A stretch of 64,000 bases of DNA from Methanoplanus limicola DSM 2279 (GCF_000243255.1 NZ_CM001436.1:124692-188691), one strand, 5' to 3'; counted from the stretch's first letter, positions 43,229 to 52,925 are shown. The notes: a model not told the origin generated them from the sequence alone. Program-made: numbers and translations.

Positions 43229-43494
43229 CAAAACCCCCCTCACCCTTAGGAACAATCACTTCTGAAATTGTCCGGAGATTATTATTTAGCATCTCCTGAG
43301 TTTCAGTCATATATGTCCCGGTTATATCATACATGATATATTGATTTGCTGTGCAGTCAAAATTCTGTCATGTGAAGATAAAATGGAATAATTTTTTACT
43401 GCACGGCATATTTTTTTAAACTCATTCTTTTCAAATTCAGATTATAATGCGGCCCTGAACAGAGCCGGATAATGAACTCAGGAAGGTGTTTAAG

Positions 43495-44073
43495 ATGAAA
43501 AGGGGATTAATAATCTGTATCTCGGTAATATTGCTGGGATTGATACCAAATGCAATCGCATTTGCAGAATGCAATAATATAATTCTAAACGGTGATTTTG
43601 AGGAAGAGAATTTTAACGGATGGATTACCCAGGATCATCCTCCATACATAAGGTACGATATTGAAAGGGGACATAACGCCGGATTTTTCTTCACAGATAA
43701 ATGCCTTATTCAGGAGACTGACCTTACAGATATTGATGAAATAACATATGACCTGAAAATCCTGGCACTCGGACCATCCGAGCAGTCATTTAATATATAT
43801 ATTGGAAAGACACTGGTCAGGACATATGTCAATGAGACATTTCAGTGGAGAACCGAAAAGATAGATACATCTGAATTTTCCGGAAATCAGGCCATTATAT
43901 TCACATCCGAAGGATTAAGGGGAAGTACAATGAATATTTATCTTGACAATATAAGGGCCTGCAAAAATTCCTGTGAAGAAAAGAGCAGTATGCCGGTAAA
44001 AAGTTCTTCAGGTATATCAGCAATTCTCCTGATCTCAGGAATAATAATTTTCGCCGGAAAAATCAGGAGATAA
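43495..44073 (+). CDS. Secreted protein with carbohydrate-binding-like beta-sandwich and C-terminal anchor
   Basis: A 192-residue protein: signal peptide (GLIICISVILLGLIPNAIAFA), then a jelly-roll-like domain. NNIILNGDFEEENFNGWI is the usual opening and IYLDNIRAC the usual close of CBM4/9- or DUF642-like domains. A C-terminal hydrophobic tail (ISAILLISGIIIFAGKIRR) follows a Ser-rich linker. ATG 43495 lies six bases after GGAAGG; a GTG at 43486 overlaps that site and is unlikely. It is 19 bases upstream of the beta-propeller gene, and both are read together. Confidence 0.78.
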   Translation: MKRGLIICISVILLGLIPNAIAFAECNNIILNGDFEEENFNGWITQDHPPYIRYDIERGHNAGFFFTDKCLIQETDLTDIDEITYDLKILALGPSEQSFNIYIGKTLVRTYVNETFQWRTEKIDTSEFSGNQAIIFTSEGLRGSTMNIYLDNIRACKNSCEEKSSMPVKSSSGISAILLISGIIIFAGKIRR

Positions 44074-44092
44074 CATATTTCCGGGTCAGATT

Positions 44093-45697
44093 ATGTCATT
44101 AAAAACAAACAGGTCCGGGAAAAAAATATTTTCGGCATCAGTCATAATAATTTTATTTTCAATATTGCTTCTGATTCAGATAAATTCAGTCGATACATAT
44201 TCACTGGCATTCAATAATACCTATGAGATTTCAAAAACAAACGCAGTCAATGGTGCAGATTGTGAAAGCTATAAAGACAATATAGAAGTAACAAATATCA
44301 ATTCATCTGTAATCCCTGTATTTTCATCATATTTCGGTGGAAAAGATACGGATTCAGTAAACTCAGTTTCTATCGGTAAAAAAAATAATCTAACCGCTAT
44401 AACAGGGGTTACACAGTCGGAAGATTTTCCTCTGACAGAAAATAATCAAAAAAAGAGAGCAGGAAATATCGATGGATTCATTGCATTAATAAACAGTAAC
44501 TCAAAAAAGCTTTTATATTCAGGATTTATCGGCGGAAAAGGAAGTGACAAACCTGTATCCTCCGCTTTTAACAATGAAGGAAATTTATACATTGCAGGAT
44601 ACACAGATTCCGATGATTTCTTCACAACCAAAGATGCACTTCAAAAGAATAACAGAGGTAAATGGGATATATTTCTAGTTAAAATAAATATAAATAATTT
44701 TGAAACTGAATATTCAACCTTAATAGGCGGATCATCATCAGATGTACTGCATGACATAACTATTGACAGTAACAACAATCTGTATCTCACCGGCACAACA
44801 GAGTCCAGAGATTTTCCGGTAACAAAAGGCGCTTTTCAGGAAAAAATTACCGGAAAAAGAGATGCATTTCTTATGAAAATTAATCCGGAAGAGAACATTA
44901 TTGTCTATTGCACCTTCTTTGGCGGAGTCAGTGACGATTACAGCGAAGCAGTAGGAATAGATTCAGAACTGAATGCATATATTACAGGATATACCTATTC
45001 ATCAAAAACAAGGTCACTTCCGGTAAAAAATGAGATATTCGGCCCCTCAACTTTCTCTTATGACTCATACATCGCGGCATTTAATCCGGACGGAAGCGAT
45101 CTGATCTATTCAACCTATATTGGCGGGGGTGGCGGTGACAGGGCCAAAGGAATTGCTGTCACAGAAAAGAGAGTTCATATTGCCGGATATACATATTCAG
45201 ACGATCTTTTTGTGAAAAATGCATTCCAGAATAATTTTTCCGTGGGCAACGGTTCAGAAGGATTTCTGACCTGCCTTAATAAAGAAGGAACTGAAATTAT
45301 TTATTCAACATATTTCGGCGGGGAAAATGATGATTTTATTCATGCCATAAAGAGTGATAACAGAGGAAATATAATCATTGCAGGTGAGACCAAATCTGAA
45401 AATATATTCAGTTCCAAAAAATACGACATTGAAAGAATTCCGGATGAAAAAAGATTAAAAAATAACTCTGATGCTTTCATTGCCGTCTTTCAGGAAGATT
45501 CCGGCAGTATGAATTCTGCAATACTTATACAGGGCAATGATTATGATGTTATTTATGATGTTGACGGATATAACGGAAAATTAATCACAGCCGGAATGAC
45601 AAAATCAGATGATATTGACGGAACAGAACCTGTACAGAAATCAAATGCCGGGTCATATGACGGACTCATCACCGAATACATAATCGCAGACAAATAA
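44093..45697 (+). CDS. SBBP-repeat beta-propeller surface protein
   Basis: A 534-residue exported protein with a signal anchor (FSASVIIILFSILLLIQINS) and six or seven blades of the seven-bladed SBBP type. Each blade has a YSTYFGG-like strand, then NNLYLTG/AGYT and a SxDFPxT turn (for example SSYFGGKDTDSV, YIAGYTDSDDFFTT, YSTLIGGSSSDV). These propellers occur in surface proteins of methanogens and many bacteria. No C-terminal membrane helix is visible. Its function, whether adhesion or enzyme scaffold, is unknown. It shares a transcript with the CBM-like gene. Confidence 0.88.
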   Translation: MSLKTNRSGKKIFSASVIIILFSILLLIQINSVDTYSLAFNNTYEISKTNAVNGADCESYKDNIEVTNINSSVIPVFSSYFGGKDTDSVNSVSIGKKNNLTAITGVTQSEDFPLTENNQKKRAGNIDGFIALINSNSKKLLYSGFIGGKGSDKPVSSAFNNEGNLYIAGYTDSDDFFTTKDALQKNNRGKWDIFLVKININNFETEYSTLIGGSSSDVLHDITIDSNNNLYLTGTTESRDFPVTKGAFQEKITGKRDAFLMKINPEENIIVYCTFFGGVSDDYSEAVGIDSELNAYITGYTYSSKTRSLPVKNEIFGPSTFSYDSYIAAFNPDGSDLIYSTYIGGGGGDRAKGIAVTEKRVHIAGYTYSDDLFVKNAFQNNFSVGNGSEGFLTCLNKEGTEIIYSTYFGGENDDFIHAIKSDNRGNIIIAGETKSENIFSSKKYDIERIPDEKRLKNNSDAFIAVFQEDSGSMNSAILIQGNDYDVIYDVDGYNGKLITAGMTKSDDIDGTEPVQKSNAGSYDGLITEYIIADK

Positions 45698-46282: not shown

Positions 46283-47362
46283 ATGTGTGAAAAAATGATG
46301 CGAAAAGAAATTGGTATTGCAGGCATTATTCTTGCAATGCTTGTATTTGCACTTGTTGCACCGGTATCAGCCGATACAACAGTAACAACCGGAGTAAACA
46401 TTGCCACCGGGGGGGGAAATGCACCGGTAATTATGGCAAAGTGGGAACAGGATACTACAGCAGAACTTGAAGACGGTGACCCGACACACCTGACATTAGG
46501 ATCACAATTCCTGCCACCGGCAACATTTGAAGGGGTAAAAGAGATAAAATACTATGCAATTGTCTGCGATGAGGAAGACGGAGGAGATTTAAGCCTCGTT
46601 TCTGCATATGTATACCACCCTGACAACGCTTACTTTGACCCTGATATGTGGGAGGAGCTTAAGTACCAGGTTATGCTCACAAATATCGGACATGACAACT
46701 GTGCAGTCACCAATGCAACAGCAGCATACGAAGCCGGCCTTATCCAGCTCGCCTCAGGATACACCTGGAACGGAGATAACGGAACAGCAGTAATGTACAG
46801 ACTTGGCAAGGGAACCGCTGATGTCTGGATGGGTACAGCAGAGATTCACTACTGCCAGCCAGCAGGCGACTATGAAGTGGTTGTCCGTGCAGTTGACAGA
46901 AACTCCAACCCTGCAATCAATCTTATAAACATCTTCAACTACCTTGAAGTTCCGGCAGCAGAGTTTGATTTTAGCTCTGTAAATTACGGAAGCACAAGTG
47001 TCTGCACAAACAAGTGGACAACAGGAAACACAGTATTCTCAATCGGGGACAACCTCCCAACAGTACGTAATATAGGAAACGTACCTGTAAATGTAAAGAT
47101 TATCAGGCAGGACGCAATGGAGTTTGGAAGAGACAACCTGGGCAACTGGGATGTTGAATTCGATGCACGCCTCGGGGATTCAGGAACAGTCGTAGCATAC
47201 GACCCTGTTGCAGCCGGTGAACCTGACCAGAATGAAGTATTACCAGACGACCTCTGGATGTGCCACAGCGAAGAACTTGACTTCTCAATCCACATTCTGA
47301 AAGGATTTGCAGGAGAAACTCACGAGGGTGAGATGATCCTCGGATTCGATAAAGCATTCTGA
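46283..47362 (+). CDS. Secreted surface protein, first of two paralogues
   Basis: A 359-residue exported protein with a signal peptide (GIIRAMLV-like IILAMLVFALVAPVSAD) and no C-terminal anchor. It has an N-terminal beta domain (VNIATGGGNAPVIMAKWEQD) and a C-terminal Ig-like domain with PTVRNIGNVPVNVKII and LDFSIHILKGFAGETHEG. The codon use favours C-ending codons much more than its AT-rich neighbours, as in highly expressed genes. ATG codons at 46295 and 46298 are alternative starts. It is paralogous to the gene at 49157. It may be a major envelope component (S-layer or filament subunit), but that is inference; family not recognised. Confidence 0.8.
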   Translation: MCEKMMRKEIGIAGIILAMLVFALVAPVSADTTVTTGVNIATGGGNAPVIMAKWEQDTTAELEDGDPTHLTLGSQFLPPATFEGVKEIKYYAIVCDEEDGGDLSLVSAYVYHPDNAYFDPDMWEELKYQVMLTNIGHDNCAVTNATAAYEAGLIQLASGYTWNGDNGTAVMYRLGKGTADVWMGTAEIHYCQPAGDYEVVVRAVDRNSNPAINLINIFNYLEVPAAEFDFSSVNYGSTSVCTNKWTTGNTVFSIGDNLPTVRNIGNVPVNVKIIRQDAMEFGRDNLGNWDVEFDARLGDSGTVVAYDPVAAGEPDQNEVLPDDLWMCHSEELDFSIHILKGFAGETHEGEMILGFDKAF

Positions 47363-47510
47363 GAAGGCTGAATAATAAAAACTGAGAAGTAGAGATAATA
47401 TTCTCTAACTCTCATCTAATTTAATTTATTGATTTACTGATAAACCAGACCTAACTACTTTTTTATTTTTAGCGATTCAGAAAAATTATTCTTAAAGAGG
47501 AGGAAAGAAA

Positions 47511-48746
47511 ATGAAAGGGGATTTTAACAGATTCAAATTAATTGCTTTGCTGATATTTACATCACTGTTTGTATTTCATACAGTTTCAGCAGCAGGAATT
47601 GCAGTAACACCTTCATTAATTAATATCAGTGATGCAGCAAGGAGTATTGAGTATGAAAAAACAATTACGGTATTTAATCCCGGAAATGATGAACTAATGG
47701 CAGACATCATGATCTCCGGAGATGCCAAAGAATGGATAAAAATCTATGAGGATACCCCCGATGCGGGAGAACCTGTAAACGAGATCAAAATTCCGGGCAA
47801 AAATATTAAAGTAAAAGCCAGAATTTCAGTCCCGGAAGATACGGCAAACGGCATGTACAGAGCCGAAATTAATTTTGACACAAAAAGTCCGGAATCTTCA
47901 GAAAATACTGAAGTAGGAGCCGTACTAAAAGTCCGGGCAACGACCAAAGTCGAAATTGATGTAACAGGTACTGAAATAATCAGTGGTGAAGCAGATCTCC
48001 TCAGAATCAGTGATTCCGAAGTTAATTACCCTGTCCCTGTTGAAATTATGTTTCAGAATACAGGTAATGTAGTGCTTGCACCGGGAATAACGATTGTAAT
48101 ATCAAAAGAAGGAAAAAACATCGACACAGTCAGAAAAACCGCTTCAGAGATAAAACCGGGTGAAAAGGAGAAAATAACAGTGAACTGGGAAAACAATGGT
48201 CTGGAAAGCGGGGACTACTCTGCCATTGTAACAGTTAATATCGGAGATAATGAGATATTAAGAGAAGAAACAAAGTTCAGTCTTATTCCGGAAGGGACGC
48301 TTACGAGAAAAGGTGAGTTCACAGAGATTAACTACGAAGGAAAAACTGTTGTAGGGAGGATATTAAAGATATCCGGAACATTTGTCAATACAGGAGAAAT
48401 TCCAACAAAAGCAGTTCTTAAAGGTGAGATCTATAAAGACGATGAACTAATAGACACCTTTGAATCCGATGAATTAACTGTGACAGCCATGGGGACAGAG
48501 AACCTTGTTTACTATTATAAACCGGAAATCTCAGGGGAATACAAAATCATAACATACATAGTTTATGAAGACAAAAAAACCGGTGAAAAGGAATTAAATA
48601 TACAAGTCACCGGATCAGCTGACTCTACTGGTGACAGTTCAAAACCGACAGAAAGTGGAAAAGCACCGCTACCAACCGCACTTGTAATTGCAGCACTTAC
48701 AATATTTGCACTTGTAATGGCACTAAAATCAGCTTTCAGAAAATAA
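47511..48746 (+). CDS. Anchored surface protein with Ig-like (NEW3-type) domains
   Basis: A 411-residue exported protein. A signal peptide (LIALLIFTSLFVFHTVSAAG) precedes three beta-sandwich domains: an N-terminal one reminiscent of DUF916/NEW3 (TPSLINISDAARSIEYEKTI, TVFNPGNDEL), then EIMFQNTGNVVLAPGITIVI and a third near FVNTGEIPTKAVLKGEI. A Thr/Ser/Lys linker and a C-terminal helix (LVIAALTIFALVMALKS) with a basic end follow. AGAGGAGG lies about 8 bases before ATG. It sits between the two paralogous secreted proteins, suggesting it tethers or assembles them. Confidence 0.82.
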   Translation: MKGDFNRFKLIALLIFTSLFVFHTVSAAGIAVTPSLINISDAARSIEYEKTITVFNPGNDELMADIMISGDAKEWIKIYEDTPDAGEPVNEIKIPGKNIKVKARISVPEDTANGMYRAEINFDTKSPESSENTEVGAVLKVRATTKVEIDVTGTEIISGEADLLRISDSEVNYPVPVEIMFQNTGNVVLAPGITIVISKEGKNIDTVRKTASEIKPGEKEKITVNWENNGLESGDYSAIVTVNIGDNEILREETKFSLIPEGTLTRKGEFTEINYEGKTVVGRILKISGTFVNTGEIPTKAVLKGEIYKDDELIDTFESDELTVTAMGTENLVYYYKPEISGEYKIITYIVYEDKKTGEKELNIQVTGSADSTGDSSKPTESGKAPLPTALVIAALTIFALVMALKSAFRK

Positions 48747-49156
48747 TAACTATTTTTTAACTTTCTTTTTGCAACTTATACCTTTAAGGAAAGATCTCCC
48801 AAGACATAAACTGTTTCACAAAAGTCACTTTATCTTCTGGCAAATCTGCCTGCAAACAGATAACAGATAAAACATTATGATGCCTGATACAGATGTTTCA
48901 TGAAGGGTGTATTCCGGATACTGCACGTTATAAGATATCAAAAAGAGTGAACTATGCAGATAAAATACCGGCTCAAAATATAACTGCCCGTCACTATCAA
49001 AAGATAATAATTACCAGCTAAAATAACAAATAATGGAATAATAGATGTTATCGGCATAACACGAATCTGCTTTGCATAAATTAATATTCTTATTTTACTC
49101 ACCTCCATTCAACAGAATTTAATTAATACGGGGTTTTGAAATTGGGTAATAAAAAT
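48747..49156. other. Intergenic gap of about 400 bases
   Basis: Nothing gene-like seen. A CTGTTTCACAAAAGTCAC stretch near 48806 shares short matches with the double-palindrome element but lacks its dyads. The promoter for the second paralogue should lie near the right end. Confidence 0.5.
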
Positions 49157-50188
49157 ATGCAGAGTAAAAATTTAAGCAGGTTATTTATATCAGCTATAAT
49201 ATTGGGAATGCTAACAGGCATATTAACTATTCCTGTACAAAGCAGTGCAGAAATAATTACAACCTCAGTGGAACTTTCGGCCGGGGGGGGACTTAAACCT
49301 GAAGTCCTGTGCACCTGGACAGAAGATGAGACAATAAACCTTGAAAACGGTGATGAGAACCACATACTGACCGGATCTCAGTTCTATCCTGAACCGGGAT
49401 ATGGCAATAGCAGAAACCTGAGTATCTATGCCGTCGTATTTGATGAAGAAAGCGGAGGTGACGTGATATCAACCTCTTCTGAGATATATAAACCTCTTCA
49501 TTCATTTTCCGGCGGGGAATACTACCAGAGTATAACATTTACAAACGAAGGAAGCGGAACGGTTCAATTAGCCAAATTTATTGAAGCATATGAATCGGGA
49601 ATTGTTCTCTTCAGTCCGGACTCAGACTTTGAAGAGACAAATTACAGATTAAAAAAAGGGACAGGGGCACTATGGACAGGAAAATTTATTCTTCCGTCAT
49701 GTATGCCGGCCGGAAATTATACAGTTAAAATCAGGTGCATAGACCAGTCCGCCAACCCTTCCAATGAACTGATACTTGAATTTGAATACCTGCCGCTTGG
49801 GTGTATAGAATCCGATTTCAGCTCTGTTGATTATAAGAGCACTATTGTAAAAGTGAATAAATGGGTTACAGGTAACAGTGTATTCGCTGTAAATGACGGA
49901 TATCCGACAGTACGAAATGCAGGCAATATCCCGGTCAGGATAACAGTCACCCAGGACGATATGGACTTTGGAAAGGATTACAAAGGCCTCTGGAATGTAC
50001 TGTTTGATACAAGAATGGGAAACAGCGGAACAGTAATTGATTACTTTCCCGGAGAGGATGTAATTATTCCGGAAAAACTGATGCCCTGCAGTACTGAATC
50101 GCTGGATTTCTCAATTCATATCCTGTCAGGATTTCCCGGAGACACCCATACAGGGACTATGATTCTTGGTTTTGAGGATGCAGTCTGA
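49157..50188 (+). CDS. Secreted surface protein, second paralogue
   Basis: A 343-residue exported protein with a signal peptide (FISAIILGMLTGILTIPVQSS). It shares with the protein at 46283 the N-terminal pattern S-x-GGG-x-x-P, the segment NKWVTGNSVFAVNDGYPTVR, NAGNIPVRITV, the FGKDYKGLWNV strand and the LDFSIHILSGFPGDTHTG end. It lacks a membrane tail. Codon use is less biased than its paralogue's, suggesting lower expression. ATG 49157 is preferred; TTG 49136 and 49142 are in frame upstream. Confidence 0.8.
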   Translation: MQSKNLSRLFISAIILGMLTGILTIPVQSSAEIITTSVELSAGGGLKPEVLCTWTEDETINLENGDENHILTGSQFYPEPGYGNSRNLSIYAVVFDEESGGDVISTSSEIYKPLHSFSGGEYYQSITFTNEGSGTVQLAKFIEAYESGIVLFSPDSDFEETNYRLKKGTGALWTGKFILPSCMPAGNYTVKIRCIDQSANPSNELILEFEYLPLGCIESDFSSVDYKSTIVKVNKWVTGNSVFAVNDGYPTVRNAGNIPVRITVTQDDMDFGKDYKGLWNVLFDTRMGNSGTVIDYFPGEDVIIPEKLMPCSTESLDFSIHILSGFPGDTHTGTMILGFEDAV

Positions 50189-50258: not shown

Positions 50259-51284
50259 TCACCGGAATTCCGGTTTAAATGAATGGTATATTCCTTTACC
50301 GATTCTGATTAGAGGTGAATACCACCTCATTGAATAATAGTGACGTAGTTCAGCATTAAATTTATTTTTAAAGGGAAATAATTCCGGAGTGTCAGCTCCA
50401 ATGATTTCATAGTAATCATAACCCTGACTACATGCCCATTCAATAGTATGCCACAATAATATTCCATTGAGATTAAGATTTCCAAACAACAGCCCGGGAG
50501 CACCAATCCAGGCATCAACCTTTTTTTTGTAATATGTGATCAAAACTCCGGTCAGAAACTGATCATCCTTTTTGGCGATAAACAGTTTGACATATCCACG
50601 GGAAAAATCATCATAAATATCATGAATATACTCCCTTGAAGTATGAATTCTCCCTCTTTTGACCATAAGATCAAATAGCTGATCAATATGCTCCTTTGAA
50701 CCTTCCTCAATGACTATGCCTGCTTTCCGGGCTTTTTTAATCTCAGAACGTAAATTTATGTGAATATTTGTCCACACTACATCTTTTCCTTCTTTTAGGC
50801 TAAGGACATATGTGTGCCTTGGTACCACACTATAACCACTCCAGATAAACGATCTCGGATCATATGGGAAGGGAGACATATCAATTTTAATTACATCCGA
50901 CATCAGATGATCCTTCATGAAACCATCCAGTACCTTCTGAAATACGATAAATTTAGAATATTTATTTCTGAGTTTTATATCATCATATTTCTTAATTACG
51001 GGGCCCAGATAACTGTTTTCAACCCCAACAGGAGGGGAAAATACAATATTAACTGACAGAAACTTATATACATACAGTGGAATCAGCCCGTATAACTCTG
51101 AACCTTCATAAGCCATTAAGCGGTATAGTACAGGATCAATACTGCCGGAAAAGACTTTAATTGAAGAATGCTCATTCATTTTTACAAGCCAGTCCCATGT
51201 ATGATAGAGGGTACTATTATCAGAAGAAAAAACAAGATCATCCCAGGAATTTTTATCACCCTCATCTGCAACCTTTAATTCCAT
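50259..51284 (-). CDS. FemAB/GNAT-fold transferase (BioF2/CelD-like), first paralogue
   Basis: A 341-residue cytoplasmic protein with two GNAT-like halves. DDLVFSSDNSTLYHTWDWL and the substrate-positioning PLYVYKFLSVNIVFSPP open it; LRSEIKKARKAGIVI and the C-terminal GILLWHTIEWACSQGYDYYEIIG match the FemAB/Acetyltransf_6 superfamily that transfers aminoacyl or acyl groups to sugars or peptides. In bacteria related genes sit in exopolysaccharide loci. It is 35-odd percent similar in layout to the protein at 61883 (estimated by eye). ATG 51284 gives MELK, matching the paralogue's MEIK, so it is preferred over 51302. Confidence 0.82.
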   Translation of the reverse strand: MELKVADEGDKNSWDDLVFSSDNSTLYHTWDWLVKMNEHSSIKVFSGSIDPVLYRLMAYEGSELYGLIPLYVYKFLSVNIVFSPPVGVENSYLGPVIKKYDDIKLRNKYSKFIVFQKVLDGFMKDHLMSDVIKIDMSPFPYDPRSFIWSGYSVVPRHTYVLSLKEGKDVVWTNIHINLRSEIKKARKAGIVIEEGSKEHIDQLFDLMVKRGRIHTSREYIHDIYDDFSRGYVKLFIAKKDDQFLTGVLITYYKKKVDAWIGAPGLLFGNLNLNGILLWHTIEWACSQGYDYYEIIGADTPELFPFKNKFNAELRHYYSMRWYSPLIRIGKGIYHSFKPEFR

Positions 51285-51473
51285 ATTTAATACCTCAACC
51301 ATAAACTAAATATCTTAAGACTGTATCAGAATTTTATCCCGCACAAAATAAGATGTATAAATGCATTTGATCTCATAATTCAGTAGGAATAACTATTGAA
51401 TTCATGCAACACTTATCAAACCAAAAACCCCATAACATTTATAGCAGCCAACAAATATACTTCAGAACAGTAC

Positions 51474-52010: not shown

Positions 52011-52925
52011 TCAGTAGCCACATTTCTGCCTGATATCTTCACATATACGAACATTCTTTACTGCCTGATCCGGACTGACCGGAAATTCCTTACCAGACCT
52101 AACACAGTCAACAAAAGTGTTCAGTTCCACTTTTAAGGGTTCAACCTTGCTGACCATTACTTTCTCCACAATATTCTCCTGAATGTATTTATCAGCATCA
52201 TGAGAATACCTTTCAGGTTTTTTATGAATATACACCTCCTGAGTCATATAATCTCCCTCTATAGTAAAATTTTCCTCTTCGATATAGACCATTCTGATCT
52301 TTTTTGAAGATTTCCGGCTCGTTGAGAGATATACAGGAAAACCGGGAAATTCAAATATTGCGCCGCATATATCACTGTTGCCGGAAGAGTAAAGATTGTA
52401 GGGACCCCTGAAGTGGCCATTATTGAATATTATATCAATATCATGAATCATTAAATCTTCAACAACACTACTTCCGTTTATCCTGATAGATGAAGGGTTA
52501 TGTCTCTTCATTTCTACATAAAGAGGAGAATCAATAATTCTGGATATTTCATTAACAATCGGGTTAAACCGCTCAATATGTCCCACTCCAGCCACAATAT
52601 CATCAGGAATTTCTGATAATAACTCTTCACCCTGCTTTGAAGTCTGACAGATCGGTTTTTCTATCAGCATACTGATACCAGCCCTGGCAACCTGTACTGC
52701 GGTCTCATAATGATACTGAGTAGAGACACAGATGCTCACAGCATCAACGTTTTTTAGCAGCTCATCAACTGAATCAACCACATTTATCCCGCATCCCTTT
52801 GCAATTCCGGATGACGCACTGCTGTTGACATCATACAAAAAAAGATCTCCGACTTCCTTCATCTCCGAATACACTCTCACATGATTCTTCCCCATAACGC
52901 CTGTTCCAATAACCCCTACATCCAT
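52011..52925 (-). CDS. Gfo/Idh/MocA family sugar dehydrogenase
   Basis: A 304-residue NAD(P)-dependent oxidoreductase. The Rossmann start VGVIGTGVMGKNHVRVY, SICVSTQYHYETAV, the EKPI motif in SMLIEKPICQ, and the catalytic His in EDLMIHDIDII are family hallmarks. Relatives that oxidise UDP-N-acetylglucosamine-type sugars at C3 (WlbA-like) fit the surrounding glycan genes. The substrate is inferred from context only. GAGGTAAT precedes ATG 52925. It is one of several leftward genes between 50 and 58 kb. Confidence 0.9.
   Translation of the reverse strand: MDVGVIGTGVMGKNHVRVYSEMKEVGDLFLYDVNSSASSGIAKGCGINVVDSVDELLKNVDAVSICVSTQYHYETAVQVARAGISMLIEKPICQTSKQGEELLSEIPDDIVAGVGHIERFNPIVNEISRIIDSPLYVEMKRHNPSSIRINGSSVVEDLMIHDIDIIFNNGHFRGPYNLYSSGNSDICGAIFEFPGFPVYLSTSRKSSKKIRMVYIEEENFTIEGDYMTQEVYIHKKPERYSHDADKYIQENIVEKVMVSKVEPLKVELNTFVDCVRSGKEFPVSPDQAVKNVRICEDIRQKCGY

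Follow-up and report, generated by a model that had tools for sequence, protein, structure and literature searches.

An archaeal gene cassette that appears to encode an undescribed system of cell-surface assembly or display

Analysis of a 64,000-nt stretch of the Methanoplanus limicola DSM 2279 genome (GCF_000243255.1 NZ_CM001436.1:124692-188691; hereafter the window, whose positions serve as coordinates) identified, at 46283-50188, a cassette of three genes encoding two paralogous secreted proteins, P1 and P3, and, between them, a membrane-anchored protein with Ig-like domains, IG. The cassette looks like an undescribed system that builds or displays cell-surface structures in many archaea. 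We interpret it as a conserved archaeal surface-assembly cassette in which IG would be an anchor-chaperone, P1 would polymerize and the second subunit would be distal, a model that, taken as a whole, appears to have an even chance of being correct.

All three open reading frames are located where the initial annotation of this DNA had placed them, and its description of two paralogous secreted proteins flanking an anchored Ig-like protein is borne out by the reading frames, the alignment of P1 with P3, the hydropathy profiles and the AlphaFold2 (AF2) models. Two details have to be revised. The reasoning in that annotation assumed a subunit-subunit-anchor order, whereas the actual order is subunit-anchor-subunit, as in its own title; and the start of P1, previously set at 46283, is more likely at 46295, where ATGATG is found with GGATGTGTGA just upstream. 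The start of P3 may likewise be ATG 49157 instead of TTG 49136. The features of the cassette are as follows.

46295..47362, + strand: P1, secreted, putative major subunit, 355 aa from ATG (P3 paralogue, AF2, codon use); signal peptide and two beta-sandwich domains, membrane tail absent
46373..46417, + strand: mature N-terminus of P1, DTTVTTGVNIATGGG, candidate donor strand (low pLDDT yet conserved)
46424..47359, + strand: putative assembly domain of P1 (A2 profile), the most widely shared part, with sandwiches at ~18-191 (N-terminal) and 192-329 (C-terminal)
47511..48746, + strand: IG, membrane-anchored, three Ig-like domains, predicted WxLIP-like/PapD-like fold
47592..47966, + strand: IG domain 1 (residues 28-152), pilus-chaperone-like (VIA-align to FimC)
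47892..47933, + strand: long hairpin of IG domain 1 (residues 128-141), candidate subunit-complementing strand (conservation, WxLIP analogy)
47979..48290, + strand: IG domain 2 (residues 157-260; AF2)
48306..48614, + strand: IG domain 3 (residues 266-368), the membrane-proximal domain, retained in the L116 and L117 mini-anchors
48675..48740, + strand: IG transmembrane helix (residues 389-410; AF2, hydropathy)
49136..50188, + strand: P3, secreted, putative minor subunit, 350 aa from TTG 49136 or, alternatively, from ATG 49157 (P1 paralogue, average codon use)
49256..49291, + strand: candidate donor strand of P3, ITTSVELSAGGG, aligned with the P1 segment

P1 and P3 are 41-43% identical (41% over 348 aligned residues, E 7e-94). 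Both start with a hydrophobic segment that is not followed by any membrane segment (maximum later hydropathy of 0.80 and 0.85, respectively, compared to 2.48 in IG), in agreement with secretion without a tail anchor. The AF2 monomer model of P1 has a pLDDT of 89. Neither protein has a match in Pfam or NCBIfam, and a PDB sequence search with the P1 profile retrieved just designed Ig proteins, at E-values of 0.3 or worse. Comparison of the complete P1 model with known structures using Foldseek and VIA yielded poor matches, namely, adhesins and Ig proteins with TM-scores below 0.35 or restricted to a single domain, and the search against a viral structure library produced no good match either; AbpA, TasA and thread structures are missing from these lists of structural matches, which is uninformative either way. 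P1 is not covered by any described family in the databases searched.

The distribution of the system is patchy: the P1 family is represented in 16 of the 232 genomes of the order, from six genera and five families, and another genome of the M. limicola genus lacks it. A search for the three-gene set in other Methanomicrobiales, which the initial annotation had proposed, shows that the P1-IG-P3 order is retained in nine further genomes from four families, and a contig scan with a two-row alignment yielded a single locus, on an uncultured Methanofollis contig. Across 393 genomes of the phylum, the P1-family (A2) profile was detected in 28 and the IG (A3) profile in 36, with both present in 26 genomes from eight families (Fisher p 3e-30, without phylogenetic correction). 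The genes are linked in relatives as well, contrary to the unlinked arrangement that the initial annotation had listed among the observations that would refute its reading: 26 of the 28 genomes with the P1 family also encode IG, and the two genes are neighbors in nearly all gene maps. Among five IG-only genomes examined with a widened profile, a divergent P1 relative adjoins IG in four, and in the fifth (G193) the IG match is merely partial. Because the two genes are neighbors nearly everywhere and four of the five IG-only cases are thus resolved, we regard the pair of P1-family and IG genes as the unit and the third gene as variable. A single origin of the P1/P3 pair is rejected by the phylogenetic tree, in which the pairs of lineages f1 and f3 group by lineage and the P3 genes of f4 and f5 form a clade of their own. 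This pattern suggests repeated duplication or gene conversion, the two-subunit layout thus having been reached or homogenized more than once.

Upstream of P1, window positions 43486-45697 encode two further proteins, a small secreted one that has weak CBM/MAM matches and a membrane segment at its C-terminus, and an SBBP beta-propeller protein; both genes also directly precede the cassette in G103 (L031 4624-6796; ~46% and ~41% identity, respectively), so that in this family the block could comprise five genes. Downstream, on the opposite strand (50259-51302), there is a gene for a FemAB/GNAT-type protein that matches TIGR03019, the PEP-CTERM-associated FemAB model, below the threshold, and a putative oxidoreductase gene is located nearby (52011-52925); the FemAB/GNAT-type protein may be part of an extracellular polysaccharide cluster.

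The codon use of the three genes differs markedly. Against a background of 188 ORFs from eleven sampled stretches of the M. limicola genome, P1 uses the C-ending form in 65% of its C/T-ending twofold codons (98.4th percentile) and has a codon adaptation to the mcr operon of 0.66 (98.9th percentile), compared to the 36th percentile for the codon adaptation of IG and the 11th for that of P3. The earlier remark that the C-biased codons of P1 are typical of abundant proteins is thus confirmed and applies to P1 alone, with a bias even stronger than had been claimed. The gene in the P1 position has the highest C-ending choice of the set in 11 of 13 relatives; the exceptions are two f3 genomes, in which the third gene is the highest. 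As judged from codon choice, P1 appears to be expressed far above IG and P3. A T-rich run, ctacttttttatttttagc, was noticed by eye 3' of P1 (window 47455-47475); it could be a partial archaeal terminator that helps to raise P1 above IG.

The mature N-terminus of P1 is a candidate donor strand. Residues 7-13 have pLDDT values below 50 in the AF2 monomer model, that is, are predicted to be disordered, yet the alternation of V4, T6, V8 and I10 and the following glycines are conserved in the family (VxTxVxIxxGGG); among P1 windows, the alternation itself ranks only at the 93rd percentile. Distant relatives have comparable short strands after their signal peptides, and in L090 a poly-Gly hinge separates the N-terminal strand from the domain. 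A donor-like strand is also retained in P3 of M. limicola and of the f1 and f3 relatives, and is missing in the second subunit of several lineages. A strandless second subunit could only accept a strand; because P3 here and in f1/f3 keeps a donor-like strand, a capping role is clear in f4 and f5 only.

IG contains a signal peptide and a second hydrophobic segment (hydropathy of 2.48 at residue 387), and its AF2 model (mean pLDDT 83) comprises three Ig-like domains followed by a helix at residues 389-410, so that model and hydropathy agree with the earlier description of an anchored protein with three such domains. FimC and Caf1M chaperones are among the structural matches of IG, and domain 1 aligns with the FimC N-domain with a Z-score of ~11 and an rmsd of 2.4-3.0 over 105-110 residues (VIA-align). 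For domains 1-2, the Enterococcus faecium WxLIP structure 9i1y ranks first (Z 12.9) but is tied with unrelated Ig proteins, such as CEP192 and transglutaminase (Z 12.6 each), within one Z unit; 9i25, in which WxLIP is bound to a long WxL protein, scores 11.4. At the sequence level, IG of the window reaches 15.9 bits against Pfam WxLIP (cut-off 28.9), and sub-threshold matches were obtained for WxLIP_HBD in three to four relatives (best E 1.3e-5) and for WxLIP_PGBD in one (E 4.9e-4). Sequence homology of IG to WxLIP is not claimed because E. faecium WxLIP, found in the PDB with the first IG profile at E 0.07, was lost with a broader one. The long hairpin of domain 1 includes a segment of low confidence in the AF2 model (residues 128-137), with V135, G136 and L139, as well as A143 beside the hairpin, invariant in ten relatives. 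In WxLIP, a hairpin of the first domain is predicted by AlphaFold to complete the WxL sandwich (PMC10599100); by analogy, hairpin 128-141 of IG is a candidate for complementing a subunit.

The P1-family domain is found at the C-terminus of diverse proteins, following a VWA domain (G103), three BACON domains (G524), a subtilase (G282), or Ser/Thr/Pro-rich or PTTD stalks (f4, f5), and because it closes all these proteins it appears to be an assembly or attachment module. A subtilase fused to a P1-family C-terminal domain, encoded at L098 6241-8367, may be a surface-displayed protease. In the lineage represented by genome G010, which has no IG match, the P1-family protein is equipped with a stalk and a membrane helix of its own; this evidence is suggestive only because the 5' end of the gene is unclear.

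A reduced version of the cassette is present in G086 and G090, where the P1 gene is absent and IG is trimmed to a mini-anchor that consists of a signal peptide, ANVTVSTHVTVVTDTD (ADVTVSTHVTIVTDTD in G090), a Gly/Ser linker, domain 3 and the helix; the f5 mini-anchor peptide is NVTVSTHVTVVTDTD. The two loci are:

L116 573-1472: mini-anchor locus, G086
L117 7600-9092: mini-anchor locus, G090

In both genomes, the mini-anchor gene is followed by a gene for a stalked P1-domain protein with PTTD repeats that runs into the contig end, probably because these repeats broke the assembly. The mini-anchor strand matches the P1 N-terminus better than shuffled sequences do (p 0.019 and 0.002; the two values are not independent). 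The simplest reading is that the P1 leader and strand were fused to the last IG domain, such that the anchor of the mini-system itself seems to carry a P1-type strand. A fusion of this kind is expected if the strand binds a neighboring subunit.

We propose that P1 and P3, both secreted via Sec, are beta-sandwich subunits with a common assembly domain and that P1, exported in excess, would be the structural major subunit. IG, being WxLIP/PapD-like, would receive, or chaperone, the secreted subunits and tether them to the cell. The free N-terminal strand of P1 would be inserted into the neighboring subunit and complete its sandwich, which would lead to chains or a thin filament, the base of which would be held by IG, probably via the conserved hairpin of domain 1. 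The second subunit would be located at the distal end of the chain; its versions in relatives are often strandless and carry a stalk or a VWA, BACON or protease module. The genes, their linkage and co-occurrence, the domain architectures, the codon asymmetry and the predicted folds are observations, whereas the mechanistic components of this model differ in strength: contact between the subunits and IG is probable, beta-strand complementation is somewhat favored by the evidence, and polymerization of P1 falls slightly short of an even chance. The envelope filament or lattice expected in the initial annotation is accordingly supported in part, by the linked gene set, the codon use of one subunit and the anchored Ig protein. 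Several observations speak against the model, namely, the tied fold matches of IG and its sub-threshold Pfam WxLIP scores, the lack of a good structural match for the complete P1, the 93rd-percentile rank of the N-terminal alternation, the donor-like strand kept in P3, the absence of an adjacent dedicated signal peptidase and the patchy distribution of the system.

The main rival of this filament model derives from the WxL/WxLIP (DUF916-DUF3324) clusters of Firmicutes, in which a small one-domain subunit, a large subunit with that domain at the C-terminus and a membrane-anchored multi-Ig protein are encoded together (PMC10599100). In this view, each IG would hold a small subunit together with a large one at the membrane or S-layer, with the binding modules of the latter exposed, and no filament would be formed. 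The gene set corresponds to that of the WxL cluster, with an anchor, a small and a large subunit sharing a C-terminal domain in the f4, f5 (G095) and G103 loci (both subunits are small in the window), and large partners carry adhesin-like modules. IG has the WxL-type anchor fold as predicted, combining Ig-like domains in tandem with a membrane helix at the C-terminus, and is similar to WxLIP in the predicted fold of domains 1-2 and the unstructured domain 1 hairpin, in addition to the sub-threshold WxLIP_HBD and WxLIP_PGBD matches. However, the subunit domain, with its two sandwiches, is ~300 aa long, a third Ig domain is present in IG, the Pfam WxLIP scores are under the cut-off, and the host is an archaeon; archaea lack peptidoglycan (PMC5744192). 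The WxL domain (PF13731) is missing from the M. limicola genome at E-values up to 1, under which the Lactococcus lactis control was detected, and from 25 members of the P1 family. Furthermore, a one-to-one complex would need no excess of P1 over IG and P3, such as codon use indicates, and would leave the conserved free strand of P1 unexplained. Altogether, a non-polymeric display platform of this type seems unlikely, albeit a serious competitor.

Membership of the cassette among the donor-strand filaments, that is, TasA-TapA, the archaeal bundling pilus (AbpA) and the Sulfolobus threads (PMC10151520, PMC9715654), is distinctly improbable. The cassette shares with them secreted beta-sandwich subunits, an N-terminal donor strand (here a candidate) and the combination of an abundant major and a scarce minor subunit, but shows no detectable sequence relation, has larger, two-domain subunits and includes a dedicated Ig-type membrane anchor. 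The TasA/camelysin family (PF12389, Peptidase_M73) has no match among the 25 P1-family members and only matches elsewhere in the M. limicola genome that never exceed the cut-off; AbpA and thread proteins were not retrieved in the PDB sequence search; and the SipW-type signal peptidase is not adjacent, the sole TIGR02228 locus of the genome being at 1.036 Mb, ~0.86 Mb away. What favors this assignment, apart from the shared architecture, is the situation in f9, where the P1-IG pair adjoins DUF1102 genes. At L085 7532-14488, the pair is followed by genes for a DUF7344 protein, three DUF1102 proteins, a DUF1102-VWA fusion, an S24/S26-type signal peptidase and a DUF5305 protein, and the pairs in L086, L087, L088 and L094 are likewise followed by such a cluster. 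These clusters, with their serial small secreted proteins and VWA fusion, are candidates for a separate pilus cluster; DUF1102 and the P1 family show no match to each other in Pfam scans, and the DUF1102 cluster is not part of the cassette in the window. Finally, soluble or S-layer-associated binding proteins, sensor-like or enzyme-accessory, with IG merely a neighboring surface protein, are very improbable, despite the resemblance of P1 domain 1 to carbohydrate-binding and other generic Ig-type domains in structure comparisons, given that the two gene families are linked almost without exception in eight archaeal families and that anchor and strand are rearranged in the mini-system.

Returning to the filament model, IG can also be compared with the PapD/FimC-type chaperones of chaperone-usher pili, with which its first domain aligns; both would handle beta-sandwich subunits that are incomplete, but IG is tethered to the membrane, comprises three Ig domains and ends in a helix. 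An usher would be expected to be absent from a monoderm archaeon. More tentatively, and with less confidence than for polymerization as such, the cassette could represent a distinct class of archaeal filaments. Here, an Ig chaperone-anchor tethered to the membrane would, without an usher or cell wall, nucleate donor-strand polymers of a subunit family that is new to the databases searched; these polymers would be terminated by interchangeable tip modules, with a minimal one-subunit version that relies on a strand-donating anchor.

The initial annotation could not match the cassette to a described system. This holds insofar as the sequence definitions of WxL and TasA do not apply, whereas the arrangement of the genes and the predicted fold of the anchor closely parallel those of Firmicutes WxL/WxLIP and, more loosely, donor-strand pili. 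By analogy, the cassette would work like both while lying outside the sequence definition of either. The titles and abstracts of the open-access papers searched contain nothing on DUF1102 in archaea, on WxL in archaea or on the P1-IG-P3 cassette. A family without matches in Pfam or NCBIfam or a convincing structural match has a member with the codon use of a methanogen's most abundant proteins, and the system is present in at least eight archaeal families. If the proposed model is correct, archaea would possess a modular surface-display or filament system that parallels the WxL platform of Gram-positive bacteria, and the cassette would make it possible to test how cells with a single membrane receive and anchor donor-strand subunits.
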